From the NCBI RefSeq assembly GCF_000372725.1, contig NW_005196756.1, positions 839,783-903,782 on the forward strand: 64,000 nt of DNA, read 5' to 3'. The stretch comes from Emiliania huxleyi CCMP1516 (Eukaryota > Haptophyta > Isochrysidales > Noelaerhabdaceae). The notes under the pieces are model-generated. The model saw only the letters and a program-made list of their open reading frames with translations. It ran no database searches and was not told the origin of the DNA. Below are positions 4,751 to 60,894 of this stretch, piece after piece (position 1 is the stretch's first letter; each line of letters opens with the position of its first letter). The position numbers and the translations under genes were made by a program.

Positions 4751-6738
4751 ATGCATGTGATGCGAGCCATCGCGGAGCATCGCGGCGCCGGCACGGAGCA
4801 TAAGAAGCAGACGCGCGACGGCACGACGGAGCAGGAGGCGCGCGCGACGGCCAAGCGGCGACGGCACGAGGTGGCGGCGGAGCTGCAGAAGGTCAAGGAG
4901 TCGCGCGAGAAGGGCGAGCGCGAGCGCGAGGCGTGGGAGGCGGAGAAGCGGCAGCTCGACAAGGAGCTGGAGCAGATGGCGTTTGCAGACAACCAGCGGC
5001 GCGAGGACGAGTTCCAGCTGCAGCAGGAGCGCTCGCGCGCGGTGCGGCGCGTCGAGGAGGGGCGCGCGCGCCTCGTCGACCTCCTCACCGCAGGCCTCTC
5101 GCTGCTCGAGAGCGACGCCGCGCCGTCCGAGCTGCTGCCGAACGAGGTGCCGGACCCGCTGGCGGTGTTCGAGCACAGCAGCGAGGCGGAGCTGCGCGAG
5201 CTGCAGGGCGAGATCTCGAGGCACTCCGACCTCGACTCGGGCAACGCCGACTTTTGGGCCGCCATGGGCCTCGTCTGCGACGACGCGCTGCAGGCGTCGT
5301 CGGGAGACACGACGGTGACGGCAGAGGTGCGGGGCGAGATCGACGCGATGCTGGACGGCAAGTCGCCGGCGGAGCTGGACGAGCTGCAGGGGCAGATCGT
5401 CGAGCTCGCGCGGCAGGACACCAACGCCGACTACTGGGGCGCCGTGCTCGCGCGGCTGCGGCTGGTTCGCGCGCGCGCGGTGCTGAGCGGCGCCACGGTC
5501 GGATGCGGCGGCTCCGGTCCCATGTCTAAACCCCGGAGGTGCTCGGAAGAGATCNNNNNNNNNNNNNNNNNNNNNNNNNNNNNNNNNNNNNNNNNNNNNN
5601 NNNNNNNNNNNNNNNNNNNNNNNNNNNNNNNNNNNNNNNNNNNNNNNNNNNNNNNNNNNNNNNNNNNNNNNNNNNNNNNNNNNNNNNNNNNNNNNNNNNN
5701 NNNNNNNNNNNNNNNNNNNNNNNNNNNNNNNNNNNNNNNNNNNNNNNNNNNNNNNNNNNNNNNNNNNNNNNNNNNNNNNNNNNNNNNNNNNNNNNNNNNN
5801 NNNNNNNNNNNNNNNNNNNNNNNNNNNNNNNNNNNNNNNNNNNNNNNNNNNNNNNNNNNNNNNNNNNNNNNNNNNNNNNNNNNNNNNNNNNNNNNNNNNN
5901 NNNNNNNNNNNNNNNNNNNNNNNNNNNNNNNNNNNNNNNNNNNNNNNNNNNNNNNNNNNNNNNNNNNNNNNNNNNNNNNNNNNNNNNNNNNNNNNNNNNN
6001 NNNNNNNNNNNNNNNNNNNNNNNNNNNNNNNNNNNNNNNNNNNNNNNNNNNNNNNNNNNNNNNCCGAGAGAAAGAAGCGTTTGAGGGGTGGGAACAAGAT
6101 AACACAGTACCGCGCCATTTCCCTAGCTCATAACCTCGCCAGTGGACCCCGCCACCGCCCCATACCCCGCCCCCGCCCCCGCCCCGCCACTTTCTTACCT
6201 AAGCCCACCGCGCGCCGCAGGTACTTCAACCGCGTCCACACCGGGTACGAGTGGAACAAGTACAACCAGACGCACTACGACCACGACAACCCGCCGCCAA
6301 AGATGGTGCAGGGGTACAAGTTCAACGTCTTCTACCCCGACCTGATCGACCGGCGCAAGACGCCGACCTACTCCCTCTCGCCCGACCCGGGCTCGTCGGA
6401 CACCTGCATCCTGCGCTTCCACGGCGCACCGCCCTTAGTCATGCCGCAGAGCCACGCCTCACGCACCTACTCGCTGGCCGCTTGATCTCGCCGTCTTCTC
6501 GCGACATGGCCGCTGCCCCTGCCTCGATGCGATGCTCGAGAAGGCGTGGTGCTGTAGAGTATGGCCCTCACCCGCCTCTGCCCTTCGCCCCTCAGGCGGC
6601 CCTCCGTACGAGGACATCGCCTTCAAGATCGTCAACCAGGAGTGGGAGACCAACCACAAGCGCGGCTTCCGCTGCCGCTTCGAGCGGGGCATCCTGCAGC
6701 TCTACTTCAACTTCAAGCGCCACCGCTACCGCCGCTGA
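4751..6738 (+). CDS. CACTN: Cactin (splicing-associated protein), interrupted by gap
   Basis: The N-terminal part (4751-5554) is a charged coiled coil (ELQKVKESREKGERERE) running into the cactin central region: EDEFQLQQ, GRARLVDLL, NADFW, and a block ending VRGEIDAMLDGKSPAELDEL with NADYWGAVLARLRL. After the 509-N gap, an exon at 6221-6423 encodes the diagnostic C-terminal signature (YFNRVHTGYEWNKYNQTHYD, then VQGYKFNVFYPDLIDRRKTP). The last exon (6596-6738) gives GPPYEDIAFKIVN and the basic end FNFKRHRYRR before TGA. Cactin is a conserved nuclear factor linked to the spliceosome. The last intron (6424-6595) needs a GC donor, because only CACG|GC keeps the FHGGPPYED frame. The start is uncertain; ATGs lie at 4751 and 4760. 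Confidence 0.92.
5555..6063. other. Assembly gap (N run)
   Basis: There are 509 consecutive Ns inside the cactin gene. The missing coding part lies between the central coiled-coil domain and the C-terminal signature exon. Confidence 0.99.
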
Positions 6739-11483: not shown

Positions 11484-11658
11484 TTAACCCTGGTAGGTGG
11501 ATTGTCCAAAATACGTCAGCCTCGCACGCCAAGAGCTAGGTCTGACACCCGACCGCCCCCCCCTCCCTAATATTAACCGGCGAGAGCACATTTTGGCCGG
11601 CTAATGTTAGGGAGGGGAGGCCGAAAAACGCAGACTTTTGTCCACCTACCAGGGTTAA
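11484..11658. mobile_element. TTAA-flanked MITE (piggyBac-like), copy 1
   Basis: A 167-bp core (11488-11654) has 14-bp perfect terminal inverted repeats, CCCTGGTAGGTGGA and its complement, and is bounded on both sides by TTAA. TTAA target duplication with CCC-starting termini is the signature of piggyBac-class transposons. An internal inverted repeat (CTCCCTAATATTAACCGG against CCGGCTAATGTTAGGGAG) lets the element fold into nested hairpins. There is no coding capacity. Confidence 0.85.
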
Positions 11659-11806: not shown

Positions 11807-11981
11807 TTAACCCTGGTAGGTGGATTGTCCAAAATACGTCAGCCTCGCACGCCAAGAGCTAGGTCTGACACCCGACCGCCCCCCCCTCCCTAATATTAAC
11901 CGGCGAGAGCACATTTTGGCCGGCTAATGTTAGGGAGGGGAGGCCGAAAAACGCAGACTTTTGTCCACCTACCAGGGTTAA
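11807..11981. mobile_element. TTAA-flanked MITE (piggyBac-like), copy 2
   Basis: The core at 11811-11977 is 167 bp. By eye it is identical to copy 1, in the same orientation and separated from it by 148 bp. It is bounded by TTAA at 11807 and 11978. It supplies the last codons and the stop of the F-box/RCC1 fragment read leftward from 12422. Confidence 0.85.
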
Positions 11982-12422
11982 GGTCTTTTTTTTGGCTGGT
12001 ATGGCTATGTGTGCATGTGCACTGTCGGCACGGCGCCTCGGGGTCGCAGCGGCTCTTGCGGACGACGAGAGCCGCCCCTCGCCGTCGATGAAGACGCTGT
12101 GGAACTGGCCTCCCGCCGCCCTCCTTGGCGGGTTGGACTCGCGCAGCAAGGCACAGAAGCACAGCCACCGCACGGCGCAGCCCTCGCCCTCTGGCTGCGC
12201 CGGCAGCTCGAAGCCGCGCTCTTGCGCCCACAAGCGGATACCCTGCTCCGCGAGCGAGGCGTGGAAGAGGAGCGAGACGGCCGCGACGCGAGCGATGTCG
12301 GCGGGGTCGCAGCGAGAGATGACGCGCGCGAGAAGCTCAAGGGGCAGGTCGGTGAGGGGGCAGTGTGCGGCGGCGGCGGCGGCGGGCGCGAGGCGGCGCG
12401 AGCGGCGCGGCGGGGAAGACAT
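11859..12422 (-). pseudogene. F-box/RCC1-type fragment truncated by a MITE
   Basis: From an ATG at 12422, a basic/Ala-rich start leads into an F-box (CPLTDLPLELLARVISRCDP, ADIARVAAVSLLFHA). FHSVFIDGEGRL follows, which is how a first RCC1-like blade begins. The expected further RCC1 repeats are missing. After about residue 145 the frame runs into the MITE at 11811-11977, whose sequence provides the C-terminus and stop. F-box proteins normally bring targets to SCF ubiquitin ligases. This copy keeps the F-box but not a full propeller, so it is most likely a 3-prime-truncated member of a gene family. Confidence 0.65.
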
Positions 12423-12451
12423 CGCGAGAGAGAGGGCACACCGGAGAGTCA

Positions 12452-13273
12452 GGGATACCCATCACTGAGCCGACGATGCTATAGCGTAGCCCCAGGGTGG
12501 CGCCCACCCCCATACCCTCAGGCACTTGCCTGCGCCCTGGCCGCGCATGCCGCGCACGCGCGCGCACGCCCGCGCACGCCGCGCAGTGCTCGATCTTTAC
12601 CGGTATGAGACCGGTATTTGGCGATATTTTGATTAGTTTTGGAGTGGTATGGTATAGTGGTACGCGAAAGTGGTATGCGGGGTTTTCATTAGTTGTAGCG
12701 GCTGTCGGTGTTGTCCCGGGGGCGAAAAACCATGCAAAAGTGCGGGCATTACCCGGGTATACCCGGGTTTTTCCAGGTATACCCGCAAAATACCCGGTAT
12801 TTTGCCGATTTTGCCGATTTTGCCACGAAGAAGGCACTCCGACTCGCTTTGATTTCCGTGAGGCAACTGGTATCCCGTACCACTTTTTGATTAGTGCAGG
12901 CCTTGGGTTTGATTAGCCAAAAACTCCCATACGATACCGGTAAAGATCGAGCACTGACGCCGCGCACGCGCGCGCACCACGCCCGCGCGCACGCCGCACT
13001 ACGCGGCACTGCCCAGGTTCCCTCACGCTCAGATTCCCTCACGCTCAGATTCCCTCACGCTCAGATTCCGTGCAACAGGGGGTGCCGAGGTATGCCGCAG
13101 GCCGGGATGGAGTGAGATCTTGCGGGGCAGGTGGCGTGGGCTAGCGCGTGAGGCGGGCGCAGGCAAGTGATGCGCCCGAGGGTACGGCTTTATGGGGGTG
13201 GGCGCCACCCTGGGGCGGCTACCCGTAGCATTGTCGGCTCAGACCTCAGTGATGGCTGGGATGGGTATCTCCC
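12452..13273. repeat. Nested inverted-repeat (foldback) element
   Basis: The outer imperfect arms are about 12452-12533 and 13164-13273. They share GATACCCATC, GAGCCGAC and the exact block CCAGGGTGGCGCCCACCCCC in inverted orientation. Inside lies a second element, 12585-12955 (371 bp), with 22-bp perfect terminal inverted repeats beginning AGTGCTCGATCTTTACCGG. It is flanked by direct copies of a CGCGCACGCGCGCGCAC-type sequence. Its interior is rich in ACCCGGGTAT blocks that resemble repeats at 54.35 and 59.0 kb. No protein is encoded, so both layers look like non-autonomous DNA elements. Confidence 0.65.
13018..13066. repeat. 16-bp tandem repeat, three copies
   Basis: Three consecutive copies of TTCCCTCACGCTCAGA lie within the right half of the foldback element. 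Confidence 0.9.
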
Positions 13274-13368: not shown

Positions 13369-16300
13369 CTACCACGGACGATACGAAACCGTCGGCCCCG
13401 TGGCCGTGCGCAGTTGTGAGGCTCGTGCACCCAGCTGTGACGCTGGTACTAGCGGCGCGCGGGCATCCATCGACGCGTATACGCTGAGGTGCTTGGCGAC
13501 TACATCCCGCGGCGATGCTGCGGCTTGCCAGCTCGCCGGGGCCCCCAGCGCGCCTCGGCGCGCCACCTCAGCCTGCCTGCAGGGCTTGTTTGCATGCCGC
13601 GGCGCTGGCCTCGCCGGCGCCGGCGCCGCCCCTGTTGCATGCCGCGGCGCTGGCCTCGCCGGCGCCGGCGCTGCCTCTCTCGTGTGCTGTGGCGCTGGCC
13701 TCGCCGGCGCCGGCGCCGCCCCTCTTGCATGCCGCGGCGCTGGCCTCGCCGGCGCCGGCGCTGCCTCTCTCGTGTGCTGTGGCGCTGGCCTCGCCGGCGC
13801 CGGCGCCGCCCCTCTTGCATGCCGCGGCGCTGGCCTCGCCGGCGCCGGCGCCGCCTCTCTCGTGTGCTGTGGCGCTGGCCTCGCCGGCGCCGGCGCCGCC
13901 CCTCTTGCATGCCGCGGCGCTGGCCTCGCCGGCGCCGGCGCTGCCTCTCTCGTGTGCTGTGGCGCTGGCCTCGCCGGCGCCGGCGCCGCCCCTCTTGCAT
14001 GCCGCGGCGCTGGCCTCGCCGGCGCCGGCGCTGCCTCTCTCGTGTGCTGTGGCGCTGGCCTCGCCGGCGCCGGCGCCGCCCCTCTTGCATGCCGCGGCGC
14101 TGGCCTCGCCGGCGCCGGCGCCGCCTCTCTCGTGTGCTGTGGCGCTGGCCTCGCCGGCGCCGGCGCCGCCCCTCTTGCATGCCGCGGCGCTGGCCTCGCC
14201 GGCGCCGGCGCTGCCTCTCTCGTGTGCTGTGGCGCTGGCCTCGGTTGCTGCGGCGCCAGCCCTCCGGAGGGCGACGGTGCCAGCCTCGCCGACGGCGCTG
14301 CCCCTCTTGCATGCCGCGGCGCTGGCCTCGCCGGCGCCGGCGCCGCCTCTCTCGTGTGCTGTGGCGCTGGCCTCGGTTGCTGCGGCGCCAGCCCTCCGGA
14401 GGGCGACGGTGCCAGCCTCGCCGACGGCGCTGCCCCTCTGGCATGCCGCTGCGCAGGGTGTGCCTGAGCCGGCCCCAATCTCGACGGCTGCGGAGCTGTG
14501 GGCGGCCGAAGTATCGATGGCTGTGGAGCTGGATCCGACGGCTGCGGAGCTGGCCTCGACGGCTGCGGAGCCAGCCCTCTCGAGGGTGGGGGAGGTGCAG
14601 CTCTGGTTGCAGCGGCCGGAGCCGCTCTAGCTGGGGTGCCTCTGGCCAGGGCGTTGCGACGCTCGAGGGCACGCTCGAGAGCAACGACGCTGTCAGAGCC
14701 TTGCGCCGGTACGACTCGGCCCGGCGCGGGAAGAGGAGCGGGGCGCCCCATAGGGGGGGGCGGCGGGGCGGGCGCGACGGGTGGGAGGCACTTGGGGTTA
14801 TCGAGTAGAAGTTGCACCTACAAGCACGGAATGACGGAAAAGTGGCGAGGAGCGAGGAGCCGGAGATAGTGCACTCGCGAGAGCGGCAGCACCGCGCGGG
14901 AGGTGTCGCCGCCGCAACGGCGCAGCGCCTCCTCTGCGAGCGGTGCGCGAAAGCCCATTCGGACCTGCAACGTGGGCGGCCCTCCTTAGATAGGCAATCG
15001 GGTGCTCAGCGAAGCGTAAAAGCGATCGCGTACCAGCTCCGCGACCTCTCCGGTCGCTGTCGTCCCCGCGGCGCGCCCGCCTAGGGCGGGCGCGGCTCTG
15101 CAACTTGCGGCGGGCGCGGCTTTTGCGGCGGGCGCGGCGGGTTGACGAGGAATGGGGCGGCCAACTCCGTCGCCGCCAGCGCGGAGGACGCAAACAATGT
15201 CGTGTCGCTCGGCGGCGAGGCCCGACGCCCTCGCGCGGAGCGATGCGATCCGCTCCCCGACCGCGCGAAAGAAGGCGGCCCCCTGCGCCACCTCGGCCGA
15301 GAGCGCCTCGTGCATCGCCACCGCCTGACCGAGCCCGCGCAGGAAGGACTGCTTGGCGCGTAGGGCGCCCTCTGAGGCGGAGCGGATCGACGCCACAAAA
15401 GTGGTGTTTGCAGCGACGGCCGCCTCGAGCAGCTCGCGGTGCCGCGCGCAGAACACCTCGGCGCGCCGCTTGACGGGGGCCAGCTTGGCCAGCTCCGCCG
15501 CCACAAGCTCGCCGGCAGGCATGCCCTCGGGCCGGTGCACGAGTGCAGAGACAAACTCCTGGTTGTATGGCGCAGCCTCGAGGCACAGCTCCAGCCGCGG
15601 GCCGTCCTCAAGCAAGCCGAACGCCTGCTGCGCCGAGCGGCAGAGCACGCCGTTGACGCTCAGCACTACATCGCCGACGCAAAGGCCCGCGTGGTGCGCC
15701 GGCGTGCCGACTCCCACCGCCTATTCACAGCAGTGCGGGTGTGAAGAGACGCTGTTCACACCTCCTTGCGGATCTCGTGCCGACTCCCACTGCCTCGATC
15801 ACCACCCCGAGCTCTCCTCGCTCGCCGTCGCCGTCGCCGCGGCCGCAAGCGCTGATGGTGACCCCGAGCTGTGCCTTTGGCGTCGGCCGCTGCAGTACGA
15901 GGCGGCGTGTCGGCCGCTGCAGCTCGCTCGCCTCGGCGCAGATCGCCGCGCGCGAGTCGGCATGGGCGGCGAGCGCATCAAGCGCCGCCCGCAGCGCCGC
16001 ACTGGACGCAGGGTCGGCGCTCGCGCCCTCTGCCGGCGCGGCGGGCATGCGCGACGCCACCTCTGAGAGAGGGAGCTCGAGGAGTGGCGCCGCCTCGGCG
16101 GAGCAGACCGCGGCCGCGCGCTCGAGCACGGCCTTGTTGGCGGCCGTCGCCTCGGCTAGCCGCGCGAGGCACCGATCCAACTCGGACCGCAACTCGGCGA
16201 TCGCGCCGCTGCCCCTCGATGCGCGCCACGCCTCGCCGAATCTGGCCGCCATCTCGGCCTCGGCCGCCGCCTCGGCCGCGAGGACGGAGCCCACCCCCCG

Positions 16301-17923
16301 CGCGGAAGCCTCGCTCGCCCGCTGCAACTCCACCAGCCGGCCGGCAAGCGCCTTGAGCACTCTCGGTCCGCCACTCTTGTGCACGGCCGTCAGGGCGCCC
16401 GTAAGCGCCAGTGGAAGCGTGCCGCTGCCGCCGCCCGCCGCGGTGCCGGCCGCCTCGGCCGCCTCGACTGCCTCGAGCGCGTGCGGCAGGTCGAGGGCGA
16501 GGAGGGCAGAAGCGGCCGAGTCGCGCTCCTCCTCGAGGCGCGTGTGCAGCCCGTCGAGGGCCTCGCGGGCGGCGGAGGCGTACGCGAGCAGAGCCGGCTG
16601 TACCGAGTGTGGCACCAAATGGGCAAATGGGTCCGCCTCTCCGCCCGGCGCGGCGGGGCCGCTCCCGTCGCCCTCGCCCCGCCGGCCCTCCAACAGCCAG
16701 GCCTCCTCCTCGAGCGCCTCGAGCGGGTCCGAGTGCGGCCGCACAATCGCCTTGCCTCGCACCGGCGACAGCGCCGACGCGGGGGGGAGGGGCTCGAGGT
16801 AGACTATGGTGTTGTCCTTGTCGGCCTGCGCATGGGCCTCCTCGAGCCGCGCGAGCGCCGCCTCGAGCGGAGCGCGTGAGACGGGCGCCACCGTCGCTGA
16901 GGCGCGCCGCCCTTTTGGCGCGGCTTGCGCCGACGCCGCCAGCGCGGAGCGCAGCCGCTCGACGCCAGCGGCGAGCCGCGCGACCTGGTGTCCGTACTCG
17001 TTGGCCGCCGCGTGCTCCTCCGCCCGATGGAGGAGGGCAAGGCTGTCGAACACGGCAGCGCCCAGGCCAACCGCCTCTCCCCAAGAGCTGTCGACCCGCG
17101 GCGAGGCCGGCGATGCGCGGAGCTGCTCGCCTACACGCAGAAAAGGGCTTCGTGGCGCGCTTAAGGCCCGCGAGACGTGAGGCGCCGCGGCGGCCGCGCC
17201 CGTCTGCGCGTAGAAGGTGCCCGTCTGCGAGGCGGTGACCGAGAGGAGGCGCGGAGACAGGCCGTCCGCCGCCGCCCGCTCGTAGTAGCAGCGCTGCGCC
17301 TGCGCGAGCAGCAGTGTGCGCATCGCGTCGAGCGTCGCGTCGCACAGATCGCCGCACCTGCGCCAGGGTCGGAGACACGGTTGATGGCTCCATTTGGAGT
17401 GGGCCCTCGTCGCTCTAGCAGCGTGCCTGGCGCCGCCGGCCCACTCCGCCGCGACAAGCTCGCGCAGCCGGTCGAGCAGCCCCGCCGCGAGCTGGAGCAG
17501 CTGACAGGCCCGACGGATCCCGTCCGCGTCGGACCGCTGCTCCGCCGTCGCCTCGAAGGAGAGGACCGCCGCAAGATTGTACAGTGCAGCAGCGCGCTCA
17601 AACTGTGCGCTCGGCTCGCGCTGCTTGGCGGAGGGGTTGAAGGCGCTGCGCCAGACGGAGGCGAGCTCGAGCTCGCCAAGGTCGAAGCGCCGCTCCAGAG
17701 ATCCAAGCAGCCGGAGATACCGCAGCAGAGCGGCGCGCAGCAACCCAGCGGTCTTGTCGGTCAGAGGTTGGGCAAAGGCGAGCCGCCGCGTCTCATCCAC
17801 GAGCCGGCCTGCGGCAGCGTGCGCGTCCGCCTGCCTGGCGGAGTAGGCGCGCCGGATGTAGCGGTCCAGCGCGCCTGCCCAGTCAGCGTCGCCATCGGGC
17901 CGCTTGAAGGGGAGGGCGAGCAT
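13369..17923 (-). CDS. ALIX-like ESCRT adaptor: BRO1, V domain with PDZ, UBA, Pro-rich tail
   Basis: Five exons (17923-17427, 17357-15794, 15720-15034, 14964-14893, 14817-13369) sum to 4269 nt, that is 1422 aa. Residues 1-370 form a BRO1 domain (FKRPDGDADWAGALDRYIRR, LYNLAAVLSFEATAEQ, LLAQAQRCYYERA). An ALIX/PDCD6IP V domain follows (YLEPLPPASALSP, FAHLVPHSVQPALLAY). A PDZ domain sits within the V domain at about 655-735 (AQLGVTISACG, then AGLCVGDVVLSVNGV), and V-domain helices resume after it (NQEFVSALVHRPEGMP). Exons 3-5 join to give a UBA domain (ELVRMGFRAPLAEEALRRCG, DTSRAVQLLLDNP) and then about 470 residues of Pro/Ala-rich repeats. ALIX proteins link cargo to ESCRT-III in endosomal sorting. 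The first intron (17358-17426) needs a GC donor and is frame-neutral if retained. A 1-kb transposon sits 94 bp upstream of the ATG. Confidence 0.85.
13577..14460. repeat. 60-bp minisatellite in 120-bp higher-order dimers
   Basis: About a dozen 60-bp monomers alternate between two types (one with CTTGCATGCCGCGGCGCTGG, one with CTCGTGTGCTGTGGCGCTGG). Together they form near-perfect 120-bp dimers. A later pair carries a 45-bp variant insert. Read leftward they encode 20-residue Pro/Ala/Arg units in the ALIX-like tail. Several other frames are also open because the unit length is a multiple of three. Confidence 0.9.
15721..15793 (-). other. Intron with 18-bp exon-start duplication (introner-like)
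   Basis: In the ALIX-like gene, within the PDZ-coding region. The intron begins GCAGTGGGAGTCGGCACG and the next exon begins GCGGTGGGAGTCGGCACG (17 of 18). The body holds GTGTGAACAGCGTCTCTTCA with an internal inverted repeat and ends GCTGTGAATAG. A GT donor three bases further on is also possible. Confidence 0.6.
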
Positions 17924-21110: not shown

Positions 21111-24100
21111 CTATGAGTCACATGCTAGGCTTGGCGGCGGCGGCACGCCCGTTGCGGACAGGGCGCGATGCGGACGCCGGCGAGGCGGCGGCGGCCCGCT
21201 TTCGTCGTCAAACTCGCCCCACTCGCAAGCGACATCAGCGTTCGGGGAGGAGGACGCACCCGCTGCACCGGAGAGCACCTCTGGATACACGACGTTGGCG
21301 GTGACGTGACGCCCGTCCGCACGGGGAGGGATGGCGAACCGGATGTTGTCGGGATGCCCGACGCGCGACGCGGCGACGTAGAGCTGCCCATGCGCAAAGC
21401 AAATCTCTGCCTCGCTGCCACCCTCTGCCAGCAGTGTCTGATGCTCGTTGGGCAGATGGACGCACAACGCCTCGACGGGAGGCGAGCGCTCGTAGAGGTG
21501 GAACTCGAAGATCCGCCAGCATGCCTCGCAGGCACCGATGCACCGAGCGTCCTGAAAGTTCTGTATCTCGTCGACATCGATCGCGTCGTTCTCACCGCAG
21601 ACGCAAGTCATCGCACGGTCGGGGCCCTTGTACACGTATTTGTAGAGGTACTTCACAGAGCTGACGGAGCAGCACACCTCGACGTTGATGTGCGCATCGT
21701 ACTTTAGCAACAGGTACGGGCTGTAAGGGACGACCCATCGGTTGTCGACAACGCGGCCCTTGTGGATTACGGGCGGCGCTCCAACCTCTGGAGGACGTCG
21801 ACGGTATTCGGGGTAGATCTCCATCTCGCTGAAAGTCGTGGCCGCATGAAACGGCTTCGGGAAGCCTTTAGTGCAGAAACCCTCCTTGCTGAGGCACGGC
21901 GCTCCACGGTTACGAGTGCAGTCATTGTGCACCATATGTTCCAGCACGGCCTCGTGCAGCCTGACGGCTTGATCGTACGCTTTGGCCTGCTCGTCGTCAT
22001 TCGGGCGAGGGCCAACTGGCAGCGGCGGTATCTCTGCGAGAACGGTGTCGTCAATCTCGTCGGCACAGGTGAGGCGGAACTGGCTATCGAGGATACACAA
22101 GATGTGACCGTGCGGCAGCCCACGCTTTTGAAACTCGGTGACGGAAAGGTTCGCATTGGCGGTCCCAAAGATCGCTTTTTCTTTGATGTCGGTCAGCAGT
22201 TCATTCAGCTTTTGACGAAAGACTCGGCTCACAATGTCTGGTCGATCGCACGCCTTGAGCCCCTTGGGGAGGGAGTTGACAATCTCGGGCCAGTTAGGAT
22301 TGCACGTGAACGTGATGAAGAAGGACGGTTTACCGTGCGCGCGAACGACCGCCATCGCATCTTGATAGCGTCGGTGCAGATCTCGATTGCCGCCGACGAA
22401 GCTGCTGCTGAGAACGACACGCTTGCCGATTTTCTTGCCAGCGTCCCCCGCTGCGACATGGTCGACGAGGTTTTGATAGAGCACGGCCCGAATAGTTGTC
22501 TGATTGTGACGCTGCCATTGCAGCCTGCAATGCTCCGCCTTTGCAAAGGCGCTGCATACGTACTCCTAAAGACATGGACGTGCGATCGTGAGCAATGTAG
22601 GCAGCACGCGCTCTCGGGGCATGCCTCTCGTTTACGTGCCTGAAAGAGACGGCACGACATGAGGAGCGAGTTTGCCCCGTCTTGGTCGACACGCCACTGC
22701 ACACGATAGGCGTAGAAGTCGCAGGGACTGACGGACTGCTTGCTGCCAGTCTTGGTCATCCCGATCTTCCATCCGTCGTCGCCAGCTGGATGGAGGATGA
22801 CGAAGTGAAGTGGGTCGTACCCTCGATGTGTCTCGTTGATTGTCTTGAGCGCGCCCCCCCGCATCTTGACCACGATATCTCGGCCATTCTCATCGGCGTC
22901 GGGCTTGAGAACAGCCACCTCGGCGTAATCTTGGCGGCCGTAGGTTTTGTCACTGGGCGCGTTGTACCTCCGAGGGTGCGAGGTAGCAGGACCGTCGCCG
23001 GGAGGGGGCGGAGGACGAGCGTCGGCGTTGATGACAATCTTGGCCTTCGTCTCGTTGCCGCCCGTACGCTCGTACGCCTACGAGGAGGACCGAAAGAATA
23101 AGTCAATATGGTTCATTTGCAGCGCGGCACACGCAGCACGGCGCTTACCTTGACAAAGTCTTGGACGTACGGGTTGTGCTCGGTGATCGCCTTTTGCATG
23201 ATCTCGAGGCATTCACGGACACGTTCCTTCTCGGCTTGAGACGTATCGGCTGGCAGGTAGATCGCGCCCATTCGATAGTCGATCTGTTGGCACTCGCTCA
23301 TGGACGGGTCATTGATGTACGTCTGAACGAATTGTTTCGACTGGTTGTCATTCGGAGCGAGGGACCCGATGAAGTGGTGGACTCTGCCCTGGATCACGAC
23401 GGTCGGACTCCACGTGCTTGAGCCCGGAAGATTGTTCGGCCGCTTGACCTTTTGCGAGGCGAATGCTAGCGTGTTGTTGATGGCGCGGGCAAACTTCCGA
23501 AGTGTCTTGCCGACGACGCCATCAGCATCGTGCCACAATTTGGTGACTTCCGGACAGGGCGTGCAGATGGGCGGGAGCGAGACCTTGTTCTTCTTGCAGC
23601 ATATGGAGCCGTAAGTAGGGTTGGTCGAGGTGACCTCGCCCGGAAGCAGCTCGGCGCCACAGCCAGCGCACGTGGTGGAGGTGCTCTGCTCTTCCTTTGT
23701 GAGAGCGAGCCTACGGTATGAAGAAAGTAGCACGTGTTAGGATCGTGCAGAGTGCGGCCGGGGCGGTGTCACGGCGGGCGCACTTGCCAACGTCGCTCCC
23801 CTCGACCAGCAGCGAGCCGTTGAGTATTTCGGAAGCGCGGCGGGCGGGGCGAGCGGCAGCCTGCCTCGCCCTTTTGGTCTGCCGACGCTCTCGTTCATCG
23901 TCCCTGTGCTTGTCACGCTGCCCGGAGCTCTCCTTCCTCCTCCGCACTCGGGACTGGTTTGCGGCCTGGCTGAGCTCGGTTGGACGATTGTTTGGCTTAC
24001 GCACTCGGGCGTCAAAGAGCCGGCTCTTCGCCTGACCGACCGTCTCCCTCGGGTTGTCCCTGGCTCGCTCCTCGGCGTCGTCCGTGAGGGACACGCCCTG

Positions 24101-32160: not shown

Positions 32161-32334
32161 TTAACCCTGGTAGGTGGACAAAAGTCTGCGTTTTTCGGCC
32201 TCCCCTCCCTAACATTAGCCGGCCAAAATGTACCTGACCGGTTAATATTAGGGAGGGGGGGGCGGTCGGGTGTCAGACCTAGCGCTAGGCGTGCGAGGCT
32301 GACGTATTTTGGACAATCCACCTACCAGGGTTAA
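32161..32334. mobile_element. TTAA-flanked MITE (piggyBac-like), copy 3
   Basis: The 166-bp core (32165-32330) has the same 14-bp inverted repeats and TTAA on both sides as the copies at 11.5-12.0 kb. It is inserted in the opposite orientation and carries a few substitutions. Confidence 0.85.
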
Positions 32335-35370: not shown

Positions 35371-36481
35371 TCATGCTACGTGGCGGCTCTTTTGCTTACG
35401 CGGCTTGTTGCTCGGGGCTGGAGCGCTCCTCCGCTTGAGGCCGCCGCTTGCCTTGCGAGCGTCGCCACTCATCATCCCCCGCAGGGCGCGGCTCTTCTCC
35501 CCACGCCCAACCGCCTTGCCCGCCCCCTGCCGCGGCCGCGGCGCGTCCTCCTCCGCCAGTCTCGCCGCCGAGGCGCCGCTCTGCTCGGTGCGCTGCTCCG
35601 CCCTCCGCTGCAGCCCGTACAGCGCCTGCCGGTTCGCCTCGGCGGTGCGCGGGTCGGCCGCGAGATCAAAGAGGCGCTCGCTCAGCTCGCACAGGAGGCG
35701 GGGCAGCGGGGCGCCCTCGCCACCCTCGCCGTTGCCCGCGCCGGCCTCGCCCTCCTCGCCGGCCTCGCCCTCCGCGCCGGCCTCAATCAGCGGGTTCAGC
35801 AGCTGCTCGGTGCCGCGCTGCAGCACGTGCGGGTCTGCGACTGCTCCGAGGAGCAGCAGCGGGGGATCGAGGAGGGCCATCCACACGGCGGGCGCCGCGT
35901 CGGCTGGGAGCTCGCCCCGCAGCGCCGTCAGGTACTGGTCCAGCCCGAACAGCTGCACGCCGCGCGGTGCGCCGCTCGCGAAGAGGCCGTCTTGCAGCAA
36001 CGCGGCGAAGGCGGTGGCCGACTGCTCGTCGAGGGCGTCGGCGCAGAGGGCGCGGAGGGAATGGCGCAGCGCGAGGCGCATCAGCATGTAAAACTTGTCC
36101 AGCCGCAGCCGGTCGATGCCATGCCACTCGCGCGCCATCGTCCTCCAAAACACTCGTGTGAACAGCGGCCGCTTCTCCGCCGGCAGCGCGTGCACGAGTG
36201 CAGAGAGGCGCTCGGCGAGGTCGGCCTGCACGGGACGCTTGTCCGAGTGCCACATGCAGTAGAAGAGCGCCTTCCACACCTTGGACAGCTCGAGCTCGGT
36301 CAGGCTGTGCGCCTGCCGCAGGTAGCGGGTCACCGCCTTGACGGCGTCGTCACGGATGCTCTTGTCTGTGGCGCGGCGGCGGGCGGGCGTGAGGCGAGGG
36401 AGAGAAAGCGACACGGCGCTCGGGAGGCGCCTCACCGCTGGAGGCGAGCTGCTTTCCGAATTTGGGCGGTTGGCCACCCAT
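35371..36481 (-). CDS. RRP1: RRP1 / NOP52 ribosomal RNA processing protein
   Basis: Exons 36481-36436 and 36365-35371 sum to 1041 nt (346 aa), joined over a 70-bp GT-AG intron. The first exon gives MGGQPPKFGKQLASS, and the second continues DKSIRDDAVKAVTRYL. Family landmarks follow: ELSKVWKALFYCMWHSDKRP, and the near-invariant MAREWHGIDRLRLDKFYML. The C-terminal part is acidic and then basic (a KRRSAPAPSNKPRKQKSRH tail), typical of nucleolar proteins. RRP1 is needed for processing of 27S pre-rRNA in the large ribosomal subunit pathway. The short first exon is needed to recover the conserved FGKQLASSDK start. Confidence 0.92.
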
Positions 36482-36559
36482 CTGTGTTAGTGCCAATGCT
36501 CGCCTGTCCCCGTGTCCCGTGCCTATCAGATATAGTAAGACCGTCAAATTCTTTCGGCG

Positions 36560-39092: not shown

Positions 39093-39665
39093 CACAGCCT
39101 TTGGCCTTCAGCAGCGCGCCGAGGTTGCTGATCGACTGGAGCGTGCTCGGGTGCCTGTAGCCGAGCGTCTCTCGCTTCGCCTCCAGCGCCTCGCGGTACA
39201 GCGCCTCCGCGCCGTCCAGGTCGCCCTTCTTCTTCAGAAGCGCGCCGAGGTTGTTGTCTTGTTGATCGAGGCGAGCGTGCTCGGGTGCCGAACGCCGAGC
39301 GTCTCTCGCTTTGCCTCCAGCGCCTCGCGGTACAGCGCCTCCGCGCCGTCCAGGTCGCCCTGACTCTTCAGCAGCGCACCGAGCTGGTTGATCAGCGCCG
39401 ACGTCGCCCTCTCCGCCGCCTCCACCCGCTCCAGCGCCGCCCTCCCCTGCCCCGCCAGAGGCAGAGCCCCACGCAGCAACCCAAACACAGCCTTGTTGCA
39501 CTCGGTCAGGCCAACCTCCCGCTCCAGCTCGCCCAGGATCTGCTCCGTGTCCTTCGGGTTGCGGCACTCCGCCTTGCGCACATCCACCTCGGACAGCTTC
39601 TTCGCGATCGAGGCAAAGTCCTCCAACAGCGCCGTCTCAAACGCCTCCTGCTGCTCCGAGCTCAT
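39093..39665 (-). pseudogene. TPR (kinesin-light-chain-like) protein fragment
   Basis: From ATG 39665 (MSSEQQEAFETALLEDFASI), a helical N-terminal region is followed by TPRs with the pattern LGALLKSQGDLDGAEALYRE, ALEAKRETLGVRHPSTLASI. An 8-nt insertion near 39255 breaks the frame, after which two more TPR units follow in another frame. The array then ends by running into the dynein tail near 39093. Such TPR arrays are very common in this genome type. Confidence 0.65.
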
Positions 39666-39833
39666 CACCACCTCGAAGCGAGCGCCCTTGAGCACTTATT
39701 ACTTGATAGGGCCTCCGCATGGTGGTACGGCTCTACGGGACCCCGCGGGCCTCGTGTCGACTGCGTGTCGATCGTGGATTCGTGTGAACGTGTGCCCCCT
39801 CACTCTGTAGCGCTACACCGCGGCTCTATCAGA

Positions 39834-40820: not shown

Positions 40821-43800
40821 TTACTGCAGCTCGACGAGCAAATCGCCCGCCTGCACGTCGTCGCCGGACGCGACCGTCAGCTGCGCGACGCGCCCCGCGA
40901 CCGGCGCCGCCACCACCGTCTCCATCTTCATCGCCGAGAGGATGAGCATCGGTGTGCCTGCGGCGGAGGAGGGGCAGAGGCGTCTGGGGGGCGAGGGACT
41001 TGGCGACTGGCCGCGAGGGCAGAGAGCGCGGCTCGCGAACCAGCAGCCACATTCTCTCCGAGCGCCACCTTCGTCTCGACGACGACGCCCGGCATCGGTG
41101 CACCGACGCTGTTGACGTCGCCGCCGTCCGCCTTTGGCCGCTGCACCTTCGTGGCCTGTGTTCACGGCGGGAGGCGTGAAGGTGCACCATTCACAGACGT
41201 CGGCCGCTGCATCTCGTTGGCCTTGGCGGTCTTGTCCGAGATGAGGACGGAGCGCGGCATGCCGTTGAAGTTGAAGAACACCTAGAGGGCACACTCAGTG
41301 GCGCGCGTCCACGAGGGCCCGAAAGGGACGCAGCAGCCGGACCCCAAGAACACCTCGCGTGTGGCGTCCTTCTCATTGAGCATCCCGATTGCCTCGAGTG
41401 AGATCCCAATCGTTTTGCCGCGCTCGAGCTCGACGGAGATCTCCTCGCCGAGCTCGAGCGGCTCGATGTACGCGCGGGTGGGCAGCTTTGACACGTCGCC
41501 AAAGTGGTGAACGTCCGCCTTGAACTGCTCAAAGACCTTGGGGTACATGACCCACGACCTATAGACAAAGGCGGGAGGCTGCGGCAGGGCGTGCGTTGAG
41601 CCAGAGGCACGCGCGGCGTCGTTTGCATGAGGTCCGTCTCGCTCGTGGAGTCGCCGTACTTGGCCTTGAGAGCCGCCATGGACGCGTCCAAATCCAGCGG
41701 CGGCAGCTCCGCGCCCGGCCGGCCCGCAAAGACGGGCAGCTCCTTGACCACCTGAGCCTGCATCGGCTGCGGGAAGCCGCCGTGGGGGATGCCGATCGCT
41801 CCCTGGAAGTACTCCACCACGCTGGAGGGGAACGAGAGCGTCTCCGCCTGCGCGCGCACCCCCTCCTCGTCCAGGCCATTGGCCGCCATGAACTGCGCGA
41901 GGTCGCCCACCACCTTGGACGACGGCGTGACCTTGACGATGTCGCCGAGCAGCCGGTTGGCGGCGGCGTAGTTGCGCTTGACCTGAGACCACTGGTCGGC
42001 CAGCCCGAGCGAGGTGGATTGGAACTGCAGATTCCTGTTGGGCGAGATAGCGAGTCAGGGGGGGGGGGGGGGGGAGAAAGGGAGAGAAAGGGAAGAGAGA
42101 GGGAGAGGGAGAAGGATCGCACGTGTACTGCCCGCCCGGCATCTCGTGGTCGTACACCTCGGACGAGCCGCTCTTCTGCCCCGACTCGAAGGCGGCGTAC
42201 GAGAAGCGCACCGTCTCCCAGTACTCGATCAGCTTGGACAGCTCCTGCAGCTCGACGCCCGTGTCGCGCTCCCCGTTCTGCAGCGCCGCGACCAAGGAGC
42301 CCATCGATGGCTGGCTGGTCATGCCGGACATCGAGTCGACCGCACAGTCGACCGCATCGGCTCCCGCCGCCGAGCAAGCGAGCATAGAGGCGACGCCGGT
42401 GCCCGCAGTGTCGTGGGTGTGCACGTGGATCGGCAAGTTTGGGAACTCCTTGCGCAGCGCCGAGATGAGCGTGGTCGCGGCGGCGGGCTTGAGCAGGCCC
42501 GCCATGTCCTTGATGCAGAGCACGTGGATGTGGCACTCGACGAGCTGCCGCGCGAGGTCGAGCTGCGGGCGAGGCGGGCCGGGGTGAGGGCCGCGCCGGT
42601 GTGCGTGGCGCTTGCACGGGTCGGGCGCGCACGTAGTAGTCTAAGGTGTACTTGGCCTTGCTCGGGTCGGAGATGTCGCCCGTGTACGAGATCGCCGCCT
42701 CGACGACGCCGCCCGCCGCGCCGACGGCGTCCACGCCCAGCTTGAGGTTGTCCATGTAGTTGAGCGAGTCGAAGACCCGGAAGACGTCCATGCCGTTCTT
42801 GACGGCGACGTCGCAAAACCTGGCGCGGGGCGCGTACACGTGGCAGGCGGTGAGCAGATGCATGCCAAGGTAGGCCATCTCGTGGAGAGAGGAGTGGTAG
42901 GCGGGCAGCAGCAGCGCAGGGGAGGAGGAGACGAGAGAGGAAGGGCAGGAGGGGTCCTCCGCCGGCTGGTGCGCACTTGAAGACGGCGTTGTCCGGGTAA
43001 TTGGTGTAGCCGACCCCGTTGGCGCCGCGCAGCAGCATCTGGAAGGGCACGTTCGGCACGTCCTCTCGCATCTGCTGGAGGCGCTCCCACGGGCACTCGC
43101 GCAGGAAGCGGAGGCAGACGTCGAAGGTGGCGCCGCCCCAGTTCTCCAGCGAGTAGCACTTTCCGAGCACGTGCGACGTGAGCGGCGCGATGGCGAGGAT
43201 GTCCCGGGTGCGCACGCGAGTTGCGAGCAACGACTGGTGCGCGTCGCGCCAGGTGGTGTCGGTCAGCAGCAGACCCTGGCTCTGCCGCACCGCCTTTGCG
43301 AACCCCTCGGGCCCCTCCTCAGTCAGCACCTGCTTGAGGCCGCGAGGCTGCAAGGTAGTAGGCGACGCCGCGATCAGAGGCGTGACGCGCGGCGTCACAG
43401 GGCCAGACGCGCCGGCGGCGGTGCGGCCGTTGACGACGAGGTCGCCTGGGGCGGGGAGGGAGCGGCGTCAGGCGAGAGCACGGCCTGAGACGCCGGAGGG
43501 CGGCGCGGCGGCGCGGCAGCTCTAGCGCGCCAAGGTAGTTGAGCAGCCTAAAAGATTGATTTGCATCTCTAAGAGTTGAGCTTTGACTCTCGGTGAGCTG
43601 CTCTCTAAGTATTGCTTCTGGCCGCGGTCGCGCGCGTCGGTGAAGTCGAGGAGCTGCGGGTTGTCTCCGATGAACGAAGTCGTGGCATGCCCCGAGACGA
43701 AGTCGGGGTGCTTGAGCACGTTGAGGATGAACGGGATGTTGGTCTTGACGCCTACGTGTACCATACCTCCAGGGTATCGAATCCAGTGTGGGTTCAGCCC

Positions 43801-46677
43801 TGTGGGTGGTGTGGTAGCAACGGCCCATCCTGCCAGGCGCCTGGGGGGGGAGGAAGGGGCGGAGAGGCGGCAGGGGCGGAGAGGCGGCAGGGCGGGAGAG
43901 AGAGACGCCTCGAATGCGCGTCTCCAGCAGCGCGCGCGTCAGCTTGTCAGCAGCCTGGTTGAAGCTGAGCGCGGAAGCCGTCACCTTCATCAGCATCGAG
44001 TCGTAGTGCGCGAGCACGCGAGCGCCCGGGTAGGCGTTGCCGCCGTCGAGCCGGATCCCGAACCCCTCGGCCGGCCGCCACACCTGGATGCGTCCCTGAG
44101 AGGCGGCGGAGCGGTTGGCGGTCAGCAGGAGAGGGATGGGGCCAGAGGGCGCGTGGGTAGTGGTGCGGGGGCGAGCAGGGGCGGTCTCGGAAAAGCGTCT
44201 CCGTGCGTGCCGTCTGTCTGGTATAGCCCCAGCCGACTCCGCGTGAACTCTCGAGGGATCTCGAGTTGCGGAGCTCCCCATATCTTCCCATATCTCCCCA
44301 TATCTCGAGTTGCGGAGCCAGCCCGGTGTACGACCTCTGTTCACACCGAGCAGCTGGGAGTGGCTGCGGCTATAGCAGACAGGCGCGCCGTATCGGGCCG
44401 GAAGTCCTCGGCCGGGTCCTCCGTGGTCACGCGAGCTTGGATGGCGAAGCCCCTCATCGCGACGTCCTCCTGCGACAGCCCGATCTCGTGCAGCTTCTGC
44501 CCCGCAGCGATCCTGATCTGCGACGACGGACCGGGGCAAGCTCGGGCGGCGGCGGCGAGGGCGGCGGCGGGCGAGGGCAGCAGTGGCGGCGACGGCGAGG
44601 GGGGGCGGAGGCGACGGGGGAGGCGGCGAGGGTGGCGGTGGGCTCGGCGGCAGCGGCCTGCGACTGGACAAGGTCGACGCCGGTAATTACCTCCGTCACG
44701 GTGTGCTCCACTTGAATCCTGAGCGTTTTGGGGGGCGAGCGCGGTGAGCGCGATGAGCGCGGTGAGCGGTGAGCGCGGTGGGCGCAGTGAGCGCGGCCCG
44801 TGTAATGAACAGCCGTGTTTGGCTTGTTGAGTATGCGTGTGCCTCGGATTGACTTCGAGAAAGTAGTAGTTCCACCTGCGACGACGGAGGGGCCAGGCTC
44901 GGGCGGCGGCGGCGAGGGCGGGGGTGGCGACGGGTGAGGCGGCGAGCGCGGGGGGGGGGCGAGGGCGGCGAGCGCGGGGGGGGGCGAGGGCGGCGGCGGA
45001 CGTCTTCCGGTCGACGAGGAACTCAACGGTGCCAGCGCAGAAGTAGCCGGCACCCTTGGTGATGCGGATCGCGTCGGCGTACAGCGACTCGCGCAGCGAC
45101 TCGGGCAGCCCGATCGACGGCGCAACCTCGACGATCTTCTGGTGGCGCCGCTGGACGGAGCAGTCGCGCTCGAAGAGGTGGGTGGCGTTGGTGCCGTCGG
45201 CGATGATCTGGATCTCGACGTGGCGCGGCGACTCGACGTACCGCTCGATGAACATCGCGCCCTGCGCAGAGGAGGTACATTGCATTTGGTTCACTTCGGG
45301 CTGAGATAACTTGTACAATTTGATGGGCCATGTCCTTTGGTCACGCACGTTGCCGAAGGCCGTCGTCGCCTCGCGCGACGCCGAGAGGAAGTTGGTCTCC
45401 AGCTCGTCCTCCGAGCGCACGATCCGCATGCCCCGCCCGCCTGAGTAGGTCAGCAACCGGCCGTTTCCAGGAAACGGCCCGGCCAGCCCGGAGGCGGAAA
45501 CGTCGAGACGTACCGCCGCCGAAGGCAGCCTTGCAGATGACGGGGTAGCCGATGGACTGGCAGAAGTCGCGCGCCTCCTCGACCGTCTCGACGGAGTGCT
45601 GCGTCCCTGGCACCACCGGCACGCCGAACTCCTCAGCCAGCTGCCGCGCCTCCGTCTTATCGCCGAAGCGCTGAATGACTTGCGAGGGAGGGCCTGTTCA
45701 CAGCTCGAGGCGTGAAGAGACGCTGTTCACGCTCACAGTAAAAGAGGCTCGGCCACGCCCACCGATGAAGGTGATGCCCGCCTGCTCGCACAGCTCGACG
45801 AAGCGCGTGTTCTACGATGAATAGCTAAGCATGAAGTAAGCAATGACGGTGTGGCTGAGCATCGACCCGGCGGCAGACAGGACCTCGCTCAAGAAGCCGT
45901 AGCCTGAAAAGAAAACACAGCCGTAAAACGAAAGCTGTCGACCCGGGCCGGCGCCTGGTCTTGTCGCGCGCCTGGGTGGATGGCGTCGACGTTGTTCTCC
46001 TGTGCAAGACGGCAGCCGAGAGTCTGCTTTCTGCTCTTTGCTCTCTCATCCTGATCTCTGCTCTCTGCAAGCCTTTGCGATCTGCACAATCTCCTCCGCC
46101 GACAGGTATGCGCCGACAGGCGACTTGTCCTGCCCCACCAGAAAGGCCTCGTCCGCCTTGGTCCTTCCTTGAGGGACGGCAGGGGTGAGATGGGGCAGAG
46201 AGGACCCTCGGCGCAGTCTGAACATTATTGCACCTGTGCACCGAGTTAAAGTCCTCCTTGGAGTAGATGGCGACCGTCTTGATGTCCATCTGAGCAGGCG
46301 AGGGAGCGGCGCACTGGGGCTGCCAGGCCGACGCTTGCGCGGCGCGGGAGTGGGCAGGGCGCTCAGGCGACGGCTCGCGCTTGCAGAGCAACAGCGCGCC
46401 TCGGTGGCGGCCCGGAAGATGCGAATGGCGATCTCGCCCCTGTTGGCGGCCATCACCTGCGCAGAGACGTCGACGTGAGAATGGCGGCTAGCAGACCACC
46501 CGAAGTTCGAACCATACTCACTTTTTTGATGGGCCGCCACCCCGGTCGCGCTGGCGGTGGCGTCGCCATCGCGCCGGTCGACGCCCAGCGGCGGGTCAGC
46601 GGCGGCGCAACCGCCCAATGCCGCGTCAGAGGCGGCGGTGCGATGCGTGCGCCGCACGAACGAAAGGAGCGCAGCAT
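40821..46677 (-). CDS. PC: Pyruvate carboxylase, 24 exons, complete
   Basis: Exon right-left edges: 46677-46522, 46456-46400, 46289-46234, 46163-46073, 45999-45972, 45903-45884, 45811-45763, 45693-45514, 45440-45349, 45261-45002, 44875-44843, 44718-44658, 44517-44389, 44095-43909, 43751-43616, 43547-43531, 43445-42977, 42819-42633, 42562-42123, 42034-41618, 41558-41354, 41281-41222, 41155-41041, 40957-40821. The sum is 3582 nt, 1193 aa, close to the human enzyme. An Arg-rich presequence ([20 protein letters not shown]) suggests mitochondria. Biotin carboxylase: [23 protein letters not shown]. Carboxyltransferase: [37 protein letters not shown]. The biotinyl Lys is in [10 protein letters not shown]. 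It makes oxaloacetate from pyruvate, bicarbonate and ATP. Eleven of the 23 introns need GC donors. Confidence 0.96.
41156..41221 (-). other. Intron with exon-start duplication (introner-like)
   Basis: In pyruvate carboxylase. The intron starts GCCAACGAGATGCAGCGGCC and the next exon starts GCCACGAAGGTGCAGCGGCC (16 of 20 identical). The body ends CTTCACGCCTCCCGCCGTGA then ACACAG, resembling the introns at 45694 and 15721. Confidence 0.6.
45694..45762 (-). other. Intron sharing its body with an ALIX-like intron
   Basis: In pyruvate carboxylase, 69 bp, GT-AG. Its 3-prime half (GCGTGAACAGCGTCTCTTCA, then a CGCC spacer and GCTGTGAACAG) aligns with the intron at 15721-15793 over about 40 bp. It contains an inverted repeat, GCGTGAA and TTCACGC. 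Confidence 0.6.
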
Positions 46678-51765: not shown

Positions 51766-52472
51766 GCGCACACAAAAGCTTTTGCGCAGCAACCGAAAGA
51801 AAGAAAGAAAACAGACAGCCCAAGGGAGGGATGGGAGGACGGCACGCCGCCACCACACAGGGATTTTAAGGAGAGGTGTGTGATGCGCTAGCCGTCGCCC
51901 ACCCTAGGGAGTCTGCCTCTTGTGCGCAGAACCCGGCCGGGCAAATCCTGATGAGCGATTCTCTCTTTTTGTGGTTCGGCGGCTGCCTAAACAACCCCGC
52001 CGCCCATCAGTTGCGCTCGGCTGACCATGTTCCGACGCCTACTCTCGGATGTGGCCGAGGGCTCAGGGGTGCTCTTGGAGCCGCGGGGGTGGCGCCCCCC
52101 CCTCCCAACCGCCAGCGCGGCGGACGACGCGTGCGCGGTCGAGAGGGACGCTTTCCTCTCACGGTGCGGCGAACAAGGAGAGGAGCTCTGTCCCGCAGCT
52201 GCGACCGACCTCGACCTCCTAAAGTGCCTATCGACGGTGCACGCGGGGCGCCGGAGGATCCGGTGCCATGGACGGCGTCTCTTCACCATCGTTGGATGTG
52301 AACAGGTCGCGAGCCGGACCCGGGGAGAAGTGGGCGAGAACTGCGAGGTTGCAATGTCGCGATTCTCTGACTGCTTGTACGGTGCGCGCCTCAGCCCGCT
52401 CTCCTCCCTTTTCTTCTCAGCCTCCCCTCAGACTTGCAGCACGCACCCGCAGGCCCGCGCCTGCTCCTCCCG

Positions 52473-54275: not shown

Positions 54276-55409
54276 AAGTCTTCACCCCAGCCCATGCTGT
54301 TACTGTTTGTTACTGTTGTTACTGTTGTTCAGCAGCCAGCAAGCAGAAAATGGCAAAAAACCCGGGTAAAGCCCGAAAATACCTGGGATTTTCCGGGTAT
54401 TTTCGGGTATTACCCGCACTGGACACTAGAGATCGTCGTGGTTCACTGCCAGGCCTTCCTTACTGTTGTTCAGTCGGCCTAACGTCAGCTACTGTTGTTG
54501 GGGAGCCCCACTGTTGTTCTGTTGTTACTGTTGTTCTGTTGAGTGTTGTTACTGTTAACACTAAAAAAACTCGACCCACGTAGACAAGGAGCGCGCGCCA
54601 ATGGCCGCCTCCGTGACACTCCCACCTCCTGGGCCGGCGCGCGAGTTTTAACGAGTTTCTCCCGGCCGATTGCCTCCTGACACGCCCACTGACCGACCCC
54701 ATTAAAGGCCTATTTCCAGCTTGGGGAAGTGCGCCGCCCGTGCGTCATTGGGACTCGTGGCGCCTCCCAGGCCCGCCGCAGCGGTCCCGTGGGTACCTGC
54801 CGTCCGTACCGGTCCACGGGCTAGCCCTGGGCACATTCGGACCGAACTCGCTGCGCAATCCGGTCTCGGTGTTGCTGTCGGCGGCCGGCAGCCCTTGGGG
54901 GTCGAGTCGCAGGATGTCGCAAAACTTTGCCACACGTGCTCGAGCGTCGAGCTTCCGGCGTTCCCAGTCGCAACTACCTCCGGCGAGGTGGCTGACGTTG
55001 CACAATCACATCGGCGGCGCACTCGGAGAGCACCAGTGCTCTTTCGGTGGGCTGTCGTGGGGTGGTGCACGACATGCATTGAGAGGAGCCGAGAGAAGCA
55101 GCGGCTGTGGGGCTTCCACGGCTGCCAAAGGGTGGTTCACGACTACTCTGAGCAGGGCTGTGCTTTGGTGGGGTTGTGCTTGAGCATGTGTGAAGTGGGA
55201 GTGCGTGCCGGCGGTGTCTGTGGGTGAAACGGGCGTGTATGAGGCCGTAAGAGCCGTGGTATGAGCCAGAGTGGGCTTCATCACCCAAAATAAGGACGGT
55301 TTGGGAGAGCTCAGACTTGATGCTGATGGGCCTGGGCCAGGAGAGCGACAGAGAAGGCGAGGTGGTGAGCTGGGAAGCCGCTTCGTCGGCACCTGGACGT
55401 GTCGCGATG

Positions 55410-55645
55410 AACTGCCAAAAAGCACCTTTTGCGGCTATTGCTCAAGACTTCGGGAGACAAGGCCTACATATTATGACTGCATCCATGCGTCTGGTGCATG
55501 AGGTCTGCGGGTTCGGACATTTCACGGTCGGTGGCGCCGGTGATGGCCTCCGGAAAGCCCTCGCAATCGCCTCGGATGGGGTCCACCGGAGACAATCTCG
55601 AGCCCTCTCCGTGGCATCACGAGCCGGTGTGAGCTTGCAGACCCA
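55410..55645 (+). CDS. Repeated exon-like frame of unknown family
   Basis: The frame AAIAQDFGRQGLHIMTASMR, LVHEVCGFGHFTVGGAG, LRKALAIASDGVHRRQSRAL is followed by a good donor (CAAGGTAAGT). Equivalent frames occur leftward at about 57105-56865 and 56745-56510, all with the donor kept. This suggests tandem exons of a gene family. I do not recognise the family. Confidence 0.35.
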
Positions 55646-55793
55646 AGGTAAGTGCGGTCTGGGACGGCTCAGGTGTGCTACTGATGGGCCTGGGCCAGGA
55701 GGACGACAGAGAAGGCGAGGTGGTGCGCTGAGAGGCTGGAGCGTCCGCGTGTGACCTTGTCGCGATGCAAGTGCCACAAAGCGTTGTTTTCTG

Positions 55794-55893
55794 NNNNNNN
55801 NNNNNNNNNNNNNNNNNNNNNNNNNNNNNNNNNNNNNNNNNNNNNNNNNNNNNNNNNNNNNNNNNNNNNNNNNNNNNNNNNNNNNNNNNNNNN
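55794..55893. other. Assembly gap (100 Ns)
   Basis: Exactly 100 Ns, a conventional gap of unknown size, at the centre of the inverted repeat, where assembly would be expected to fail. Confidence 0.99.
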
Positions 55894-60790: not shown

Positions 60791-60894
60791 CTCTTGGTGG
60801 CGAGATGTGCTTTATCCGGTGGCCGCAGGGACGGCACAGGCGGCGGCATGGCCATTTGTGTATGCGCCGCGGATTTTCTTTTTTTATGCTAGGA

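Follow-up and report, generated by a model that had tools for sequence, protein, structure and literature searches.

The window analysed here, a 64,000-nucleotide stretch of the haptophyte Emiliania huxleyi CCMP1516 (contig NW_005196756.1, positions 839,783 to 903,782 of the forward strand), carries on its minus strand, at 13369-17923, a gene resembling those for ALIX and Bro1, adaptors of the endosomal sorting complexes required for transport (ESCRT). Our reading, to which we give a probability of about 0.65, is that the locus is a real nuclear gene encoding an ESCRT adaptor of the ALIX/Bro1 type, in which a PDZ domain lies between helices of the V domain and the linker from V to the tail holds a UBA domain, and that the protein works by the mechanism discussed below. 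The evidence supports the following order of domains: BRO1, V up to the PDZ insertion, PDZ, the rest of V, UBA and a putative Pro/Ala-rich tail. ALIX is an adaptor central to multivesicular-body sorting as well as to cytokinesis and virus budding, and there is no settled view of how its V domain opens and becomes loaded. A natural protein with a peptide-binding domain inserted in V and an added UBA offers a ready test of whether a module placed where the V arms meet is tolerated by V or controls it.

The gene model was rebuilt from the minus strand of this interval and the spliced product was then translated. Five exons (17923-17427, 17357-15794, 15720-15034, 14964-14893 and 14817-13369) join in frame to give 1422 amino acids and a stop, exactly the total proposed in the first-pass annotation, which a model had made from the sequence. 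That annotation also held every exon to be a multiple of codons; this is so for exons 3, 4 and 5 singly but not for exons 1 (497 nt) and 2 (1564 nt), which are divisible by three only jointly, with the frame kept over their junction. Exon 1 contains the start codon and the N-terminal third of BRO1, the Pfam match to BRO1 beginning at residue 1 and at profile position 1. Exon 2 holds the remainder of BRO1, the first part of V and the first half of PDZ; exon 3 (687 nt) the second half of PDZ, the second part of V, a linker and the first UBA residues; exon 4 (72 nt) the UBA core, including its MGF loop; and exon 5 (1449 nt including the stop) the end of UBA and an Ala/Pro/Arg-rich tail. Intron 1 (17358-17426, 69 nt) is free of in-frame stops and would, if retained, add 23 residues within BRO1. 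Intron 2 (15721-15793, 73 nt) interrupts PDZ, and introns 3 (14965-15033, 69 nt) and 4 (14818-14892, 75 nt) both fall within UBA. All four introns end in AG; the first two have GC donors and the last two GT donors. Their GC content (0.59-0.65) is below that of the exons, in a window of 63.6% GC. The E. huxleyi genome is 65% GC, and GC-AG introns make up 56% of its hand-mapped junctions (PMC4028052).

No domain edge coincides with an exon edge, and all introns lie within domains. Because every intron interrupts a domain, the domains are not the products of separate genes; and because PDZ is divided between the two main exons, it could not be lost cleanly by skipping one exon. Splicing raises the scores of BRO1, PDZ and UBA alike, BRO1 going from 207.7 to 213.7 bits once intron 1 is excised and PDZ from 38.8 bits for exon 3 alone to 45.7 bits for the joined exon 2-3 segment. 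The Pfam search of the spliced product, which covered residues 1-1112 and the last 76 residues with E-values counted over the whole library, returns BRO1, ALIX_LYPXL_bnd, PDZ and UBA.

BRO1 (16568-17923, residues 1-429) matches PF03097 with an E-value of 5e-63 over profile positions 1-381 of 385, and its nearest solved structures by phmmer are human ALIX (6e-19) and HD-PTP (1.5e-14). At the CHMP4-binding Surface 1, the alignment with human ALIX gives D143 as D, K147 as R, F199 as Y, I212 as L and L216 as T, and the positions of the site appear mostly retained. Surface 1 and I212 are named in an earlier study (PMC3230590).

The V domain profile, ALIX_LYPXL_bnd (PF13949), is matched on the spliced product with an E-value of 6.2e-18 in two stretches. 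The first part (15923-16633, residues 408-644) covers profile positions 2-165, the alignment with human ALIX V also beginning at residue 408, and the second part (15205-15567, residues 739-859) covers positions 191-292. PDZ (15577-15895, residues ~654-735), itself split by intron 2, lies between them and exceeds the curated cut-offs of two profiles, PDZ_6 (1.2e-10; 41.4 bits against 27) and PDZ (9.1e-6; 26.4 bits against 23.2); its nearest solved structures are the PDZ domains of Scribble (1.4e-5) and DegP (4.6e-5). When PDZ is cut out in silico, V becomes a single continuous match over profile positions 2-292 of 295, at 72.4 bits, and V without PDZ aligns by phmmer with human ALIX V (2oex) over almost its full length. 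Searched by phmmer on its own, the second half of V finds no ALIX structure in the PDB; the match required the joined domain. In the 2oex alignment the join falls at human ENDLKSVNF/DMTSKFLTAL, that is, where human ALIX has ...ENDLKSVNFDMTSKF, so that PDZ is indeed located, as the first-pass annotation had it, between the V helices flanking the human VNFDMTSKF region.

A single-sequence AlphaFold2 model of exon 3 predicts the V part as a 76-residue helix, mostly at a predicted local distance difference test (pLDDT) score of 86-93, with the PDZ half poorly predicted and the linker toward UBA disordered. The HD-PTP coiled-coil domain ends in a very long helix to which this one can be compared (PMC5145805). 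In the V topology described in the same work, the chain goes from long-arm to short-arm helices near the point of PDZ insertion (PMC5145805); going by this published topology rather than by coordinates, PDZ probably sits near the V-domain hinge. In the second part of V, the sequence FFRAV (15259-15273) is aligned with FYX2L, a ligand-binding motif used by all Bro1 proteins (PMC5145805) and represented by F676 in human ALIX. The Phe is retained, the Tyr is replaced by Phe and the Leu by Val.

The carboxylate loop of PDZ reads QLGV (residues 662-665) in place of GLGF, with the hydrophobic-G-hydrophobic core retained, and the alphaB1 position is Ala in place of the His of class I PDZs. Because of this Ala, and despite the LGV retained in the loop, the domain is unlikely to be of class I. 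The possibility that PDZ binds the protein's own C-terminus as a class I ligand was considered separately and rejected; the chain ends in ...SYRPW, which lacks an S/T-x-hydrophobic end.

UBA (14806-15045, residues 913-944) runs across exons 3, 4 and 5, and excision of both introns 3 and 4 is needed to form the full domain. The E-value for PF00627 is 0.0033 for exon 4 alone, 0.012 for exon 4 read through intron 4 and 2.2e-5 for the exon 3-4-5 join, a 61-residue segment that scores 24.6 bits and passes the curated cut-off of 22.4 bits. The placement of a UBA at these junctions in the first-pass annotation is borne out by the comparison. Among 10265 splice pairs enumerated, every UBA signature was this one UBA, and the same enumeration on shuffled copies of the region gave a UBA signature in none of 20. 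The nearest solved structure is the UBA of NUB1 (4.2e-6), and the ubiquitin-contact features, the MGF loop and the C-terminal Leu-Leu (ELVRMGF ... AVQLLLDN), are retained.

Intron 2, which separates the two halves of PDZ, carries at its ends a 20-bp direct repeat in which 19 of 20 bases are identical. Its 3' half has in common with 45730-45692 an exact 19-mer, none being expected by chance, and 41 nt at 83% identity. The segment 45730-45692 is the end of an intron (45692-45790) of a gene for pyruvate carboxylase that lies 30 kb from the ALIX-like gene, and in both introns the common sequence sits just before the 3' splice site. Excision of the pyruvate carboxylase intron gives a gap-free protein match to pyruvate carboxylase (8e-20). 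Intron 2 is thus independently supported as an intron, because it has the 19-mer in common with one confirmed by homology; by their sequence, the two are one family of similar, introner-like introns in two unrelated genes. The pyruvate carboxylase gene is multi-exon (41194-45900, minus strand) and includes biotin carboxylase, HMGL-like and PYC_OADA parts. A third, weaker copy of the 19-mer, with 3 mismatches, is found at 52268-52286 on the plus strand.

The tail contains a minisatellite (13592-14454) with a 45/90-bp unit and ~19 copies of the 45-mer, which in the exon 5 frame encodes AAPAPARPAP(Q/R)H(T/A)R(E/G). In this frame the tail is 24% Pro and 29% Ala over 470 residues. The minisatellite that the first-pass annotation described is real, but its coding frame finds no support in codon usage. 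Codon usage marks the frame strongly in exons 1-3, exon 3 (which is in the training set) scoring 100 bits against -65 and -85 for the other frames. Over the array, synonymous codons score -4.6 when read in the proposed frame, and the two remaining sense frames reach 54.2 and 60.2; as the array copies repeat one another and are not independent, the gap really amounts to no more than a few bits for each unit. The frame of the tail would follow from the frame of UBA and the lack of stops, in sequence where each strand has several frames free of stops, and the repeat tail is a putative coding sequence in a provisional frame.

It is accordingly possible, if on balance doubtful, that the architecture is correct through UBA and that exon 5 is mis-modelled: the tail may be shorter, may continue in another frame after an extra intron or may be partly non-coding, the minisatellite then not coding for an Ala/Pro/Arg repeat. 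In favour of such an error are the fall in codon-usage support after UBA and the stop-free 45-bp unit, which leaves several frames open. On the other side, the dependence between array copies shrinks the codon-score gap, the proposed frame requires no additional intron and remains open beyond the array to the stop at 13369, and a Pro-rich low-complexity tail is typical of ALIX-type proteins. The tail also includes a single PTAP motif (14491-14502), a candidate ligand for the UEV domain of TSG101 in ESCRT-I. It may be such a ligand; when the unique tail is shuffled, ~13% of the copies hold a PTAP-type motif, and a chance occurrence is plausible.

We infer the mechanism of the whole protein, its ESCRT, ubiquitin and PDZ parts alike, from the protein families. 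BRO1 would most likely recruit ESCRT-III of the CHMP4/Snf7 class, as the BRO1 domains of ALIX and Bro1 do, and V would bind YPXnL-like ligands through the retained Phe. PDZ, near the junction of the V arms, would capture certain membrane or scaffold proteins by their tails and may affect the opening of V, and UBA would serve as a second ubiquitin-binding site. Ubiquitylated cargo bearing a PDZ ligand could in this way be passed to ESCRT-III at high avidity. If conserved in haptophytes, the architecture would bear on how that lineage, which is not known to have the opisthokont ESCRT-0, selects ubiquitylated cargo.

Several observations weigh against a genuine ALIX/Bro1-type adaptor gene working by this mechanism. 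The gene model is a prediction from DNA sequence. The GC donors in two of its four introns require a lineage that tolerates such donors. On the 1112-residue product, UBA reaches an E-value of only 6.5e-4 and 19.9 bits, under the curated cut-off of 22.4 bits. The match to FYX2L is inexact (Y to F, L to V), the change of L216 to T deviates from the CHMP4 site, and PDZ has Ala at alphaB1 and a QLGV loop where His and GLGF would be usual. After UBA, the frame of the tail is without codon-usage support.

The protein may, alternatively, be nothing out of the ordinary: an ALIX orthologue in a fast-evolving protist, its accessory domains acquired by domain shuffling without special functional consequence. 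We consider this less likely than a functional adaptor. In its favour, BRO1 and V dominate the match, and BRO1 proteins with accessories are known, among them the phosphatase domain of HD-PTP, the PDZ of rhophilin and the farnesylation site of BROX (PMC3230590). Yet the nested PDZ is intact with its core motifs, and the halves of V can still be aligned, which suggests a maintained function. In the opposite direction, the protein could be a lineage-specific adaptor whose single chain both selects cargo early and recruits ESCRT-III late. PDZ at the joint of the V arms would then be a ligand-gated switch that opens V on binding a membrane-protein tail, UBA would check for ubiquitin, and the jobs of ESCRT-0 and ALIX, separate in animals, would be combined. 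This elaboration is a long shot.

Comparison with known systems places the adaptor proposed here close to ALIX. Like human ALIX (PDCD6IP) and yeast Bro1, it has an N-terminal BRO1, then V and, in the proposed frame, a Pro-rich tail last; the CHMP4-site positions appear largely conserved, and the Phe aligned with that of FYX2L is kept. Unlike them, it has PDZ between the V helices and UBA between V and the tail; the Phe105 loop of ALIX is absent, being a gap in the BRO1 alignment, and no exact conservation of the YPXnL contacts is seen. HD-PTP (PTPN23) similarly has BRO1 and a V/CC domain followed by a Pro-rich region, with an accessory domain on the same core. Here, however, the extras are PDZ and UBA, and Pfam finds no tyrosine phosphatase domain in residues 1-1112, the last 76 residues or exon 5; identity with HD-PTP was rejected on this ground. 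ESCRT-0 and other ubiquitin-binding sorting adaptors (Vps27/Hrs, TOM1/TOL, Ede1) also place a ubiquitin-binding module on an endosomal sorting adaptor, which in Ede1 is a UBA (PMC4276913), but the VHS, FYVE, GAT, UIM and EH domains of these proteins were not found here.

The first-pass annotation knew of no such architecture, and this holds in part. A search of open-access full texts brought up no precedent for PDZ within V, for UBA on a BRO1 protein or for both. BRO1 and PDZ together, on the other hand, already occur in the rhophilins, and BRO1-V with an added domain in HD-PTP (PMC3230590). Ubiquitin is bound by V itself in both ALIX and Bro1, with a preference for K63 chains in ALIX (PMC4276913), so that recognition of ubiquitin by an ESCRT adaptor of this family is not new. 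What appears new here is the nesting of PDZ in V, the UBA on a BRO1 protein and their combination; the protein varies a well-known family and does not amount to a system of a new kind. No relatives were found in viral contigs (two scans), genome contigs (one scan) or phages (tblastn), collections that hold no eukaryote genomes and are therefore uninformative on conservation.

Rhophilins (RHPN1, RHPN2) are Rho-binding proteins that carry an N-terminal HR1 and are not known to have a V domain. They do have BRO1 and PDZ on one polypeptide (PMC3230590 and its references), and it is conceivable that the gene product is a Rho effector scaffold of their kind and not an ESCRT adaptor. This is very improbable: Pfam finds no HR1 Rho-binding domain in the spliced product, where BRO1 starts at residue 1 and leaves no room for one; a V domain is present, with PDZ inside it rather than after BRO1; and among solved structures ALIX and HD-PTP come closest. 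Least probable of all is an artefact, an assembly chimera or pseudogene juxtaposing unrelated domains, for although the gene model is predicted from DNA and two N gaps occur elsewhere in the window, the gene itself is free of N gaps, its 1422 codons run without a frame break, and at each junction, which lies within a domain, both sides complete that same domain.

Directly downstream of the ALIX-like gene is an F-box open reading frame (11862-12461, minus strand). A 175-bp repeat occurs three times at 96.6% identity (11484-11658, 11807-11981 and 32161-32334), the third copy being inverted. Other coding stretches of the window, all on the minus strand, encode Nop52 (35374-36486), TPR repeats (39237-39695) and a JmjC_2 domain of the ribosomal oxygenase type (59399-60811). 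A 741-bp inverted duplication (55051-55789 and 56745-57482, 94% identity) has a 100-base N gap (55794-55893) adjoining one arm, and represents either a mobile element or an assembly problem. A run of 509 N at 5555-6063 lies in an otherwise open region. A tRNA-Lys (anticodon ttt) at 23666-23756, called by ARAGORN only, is longer than a plain tRNA.

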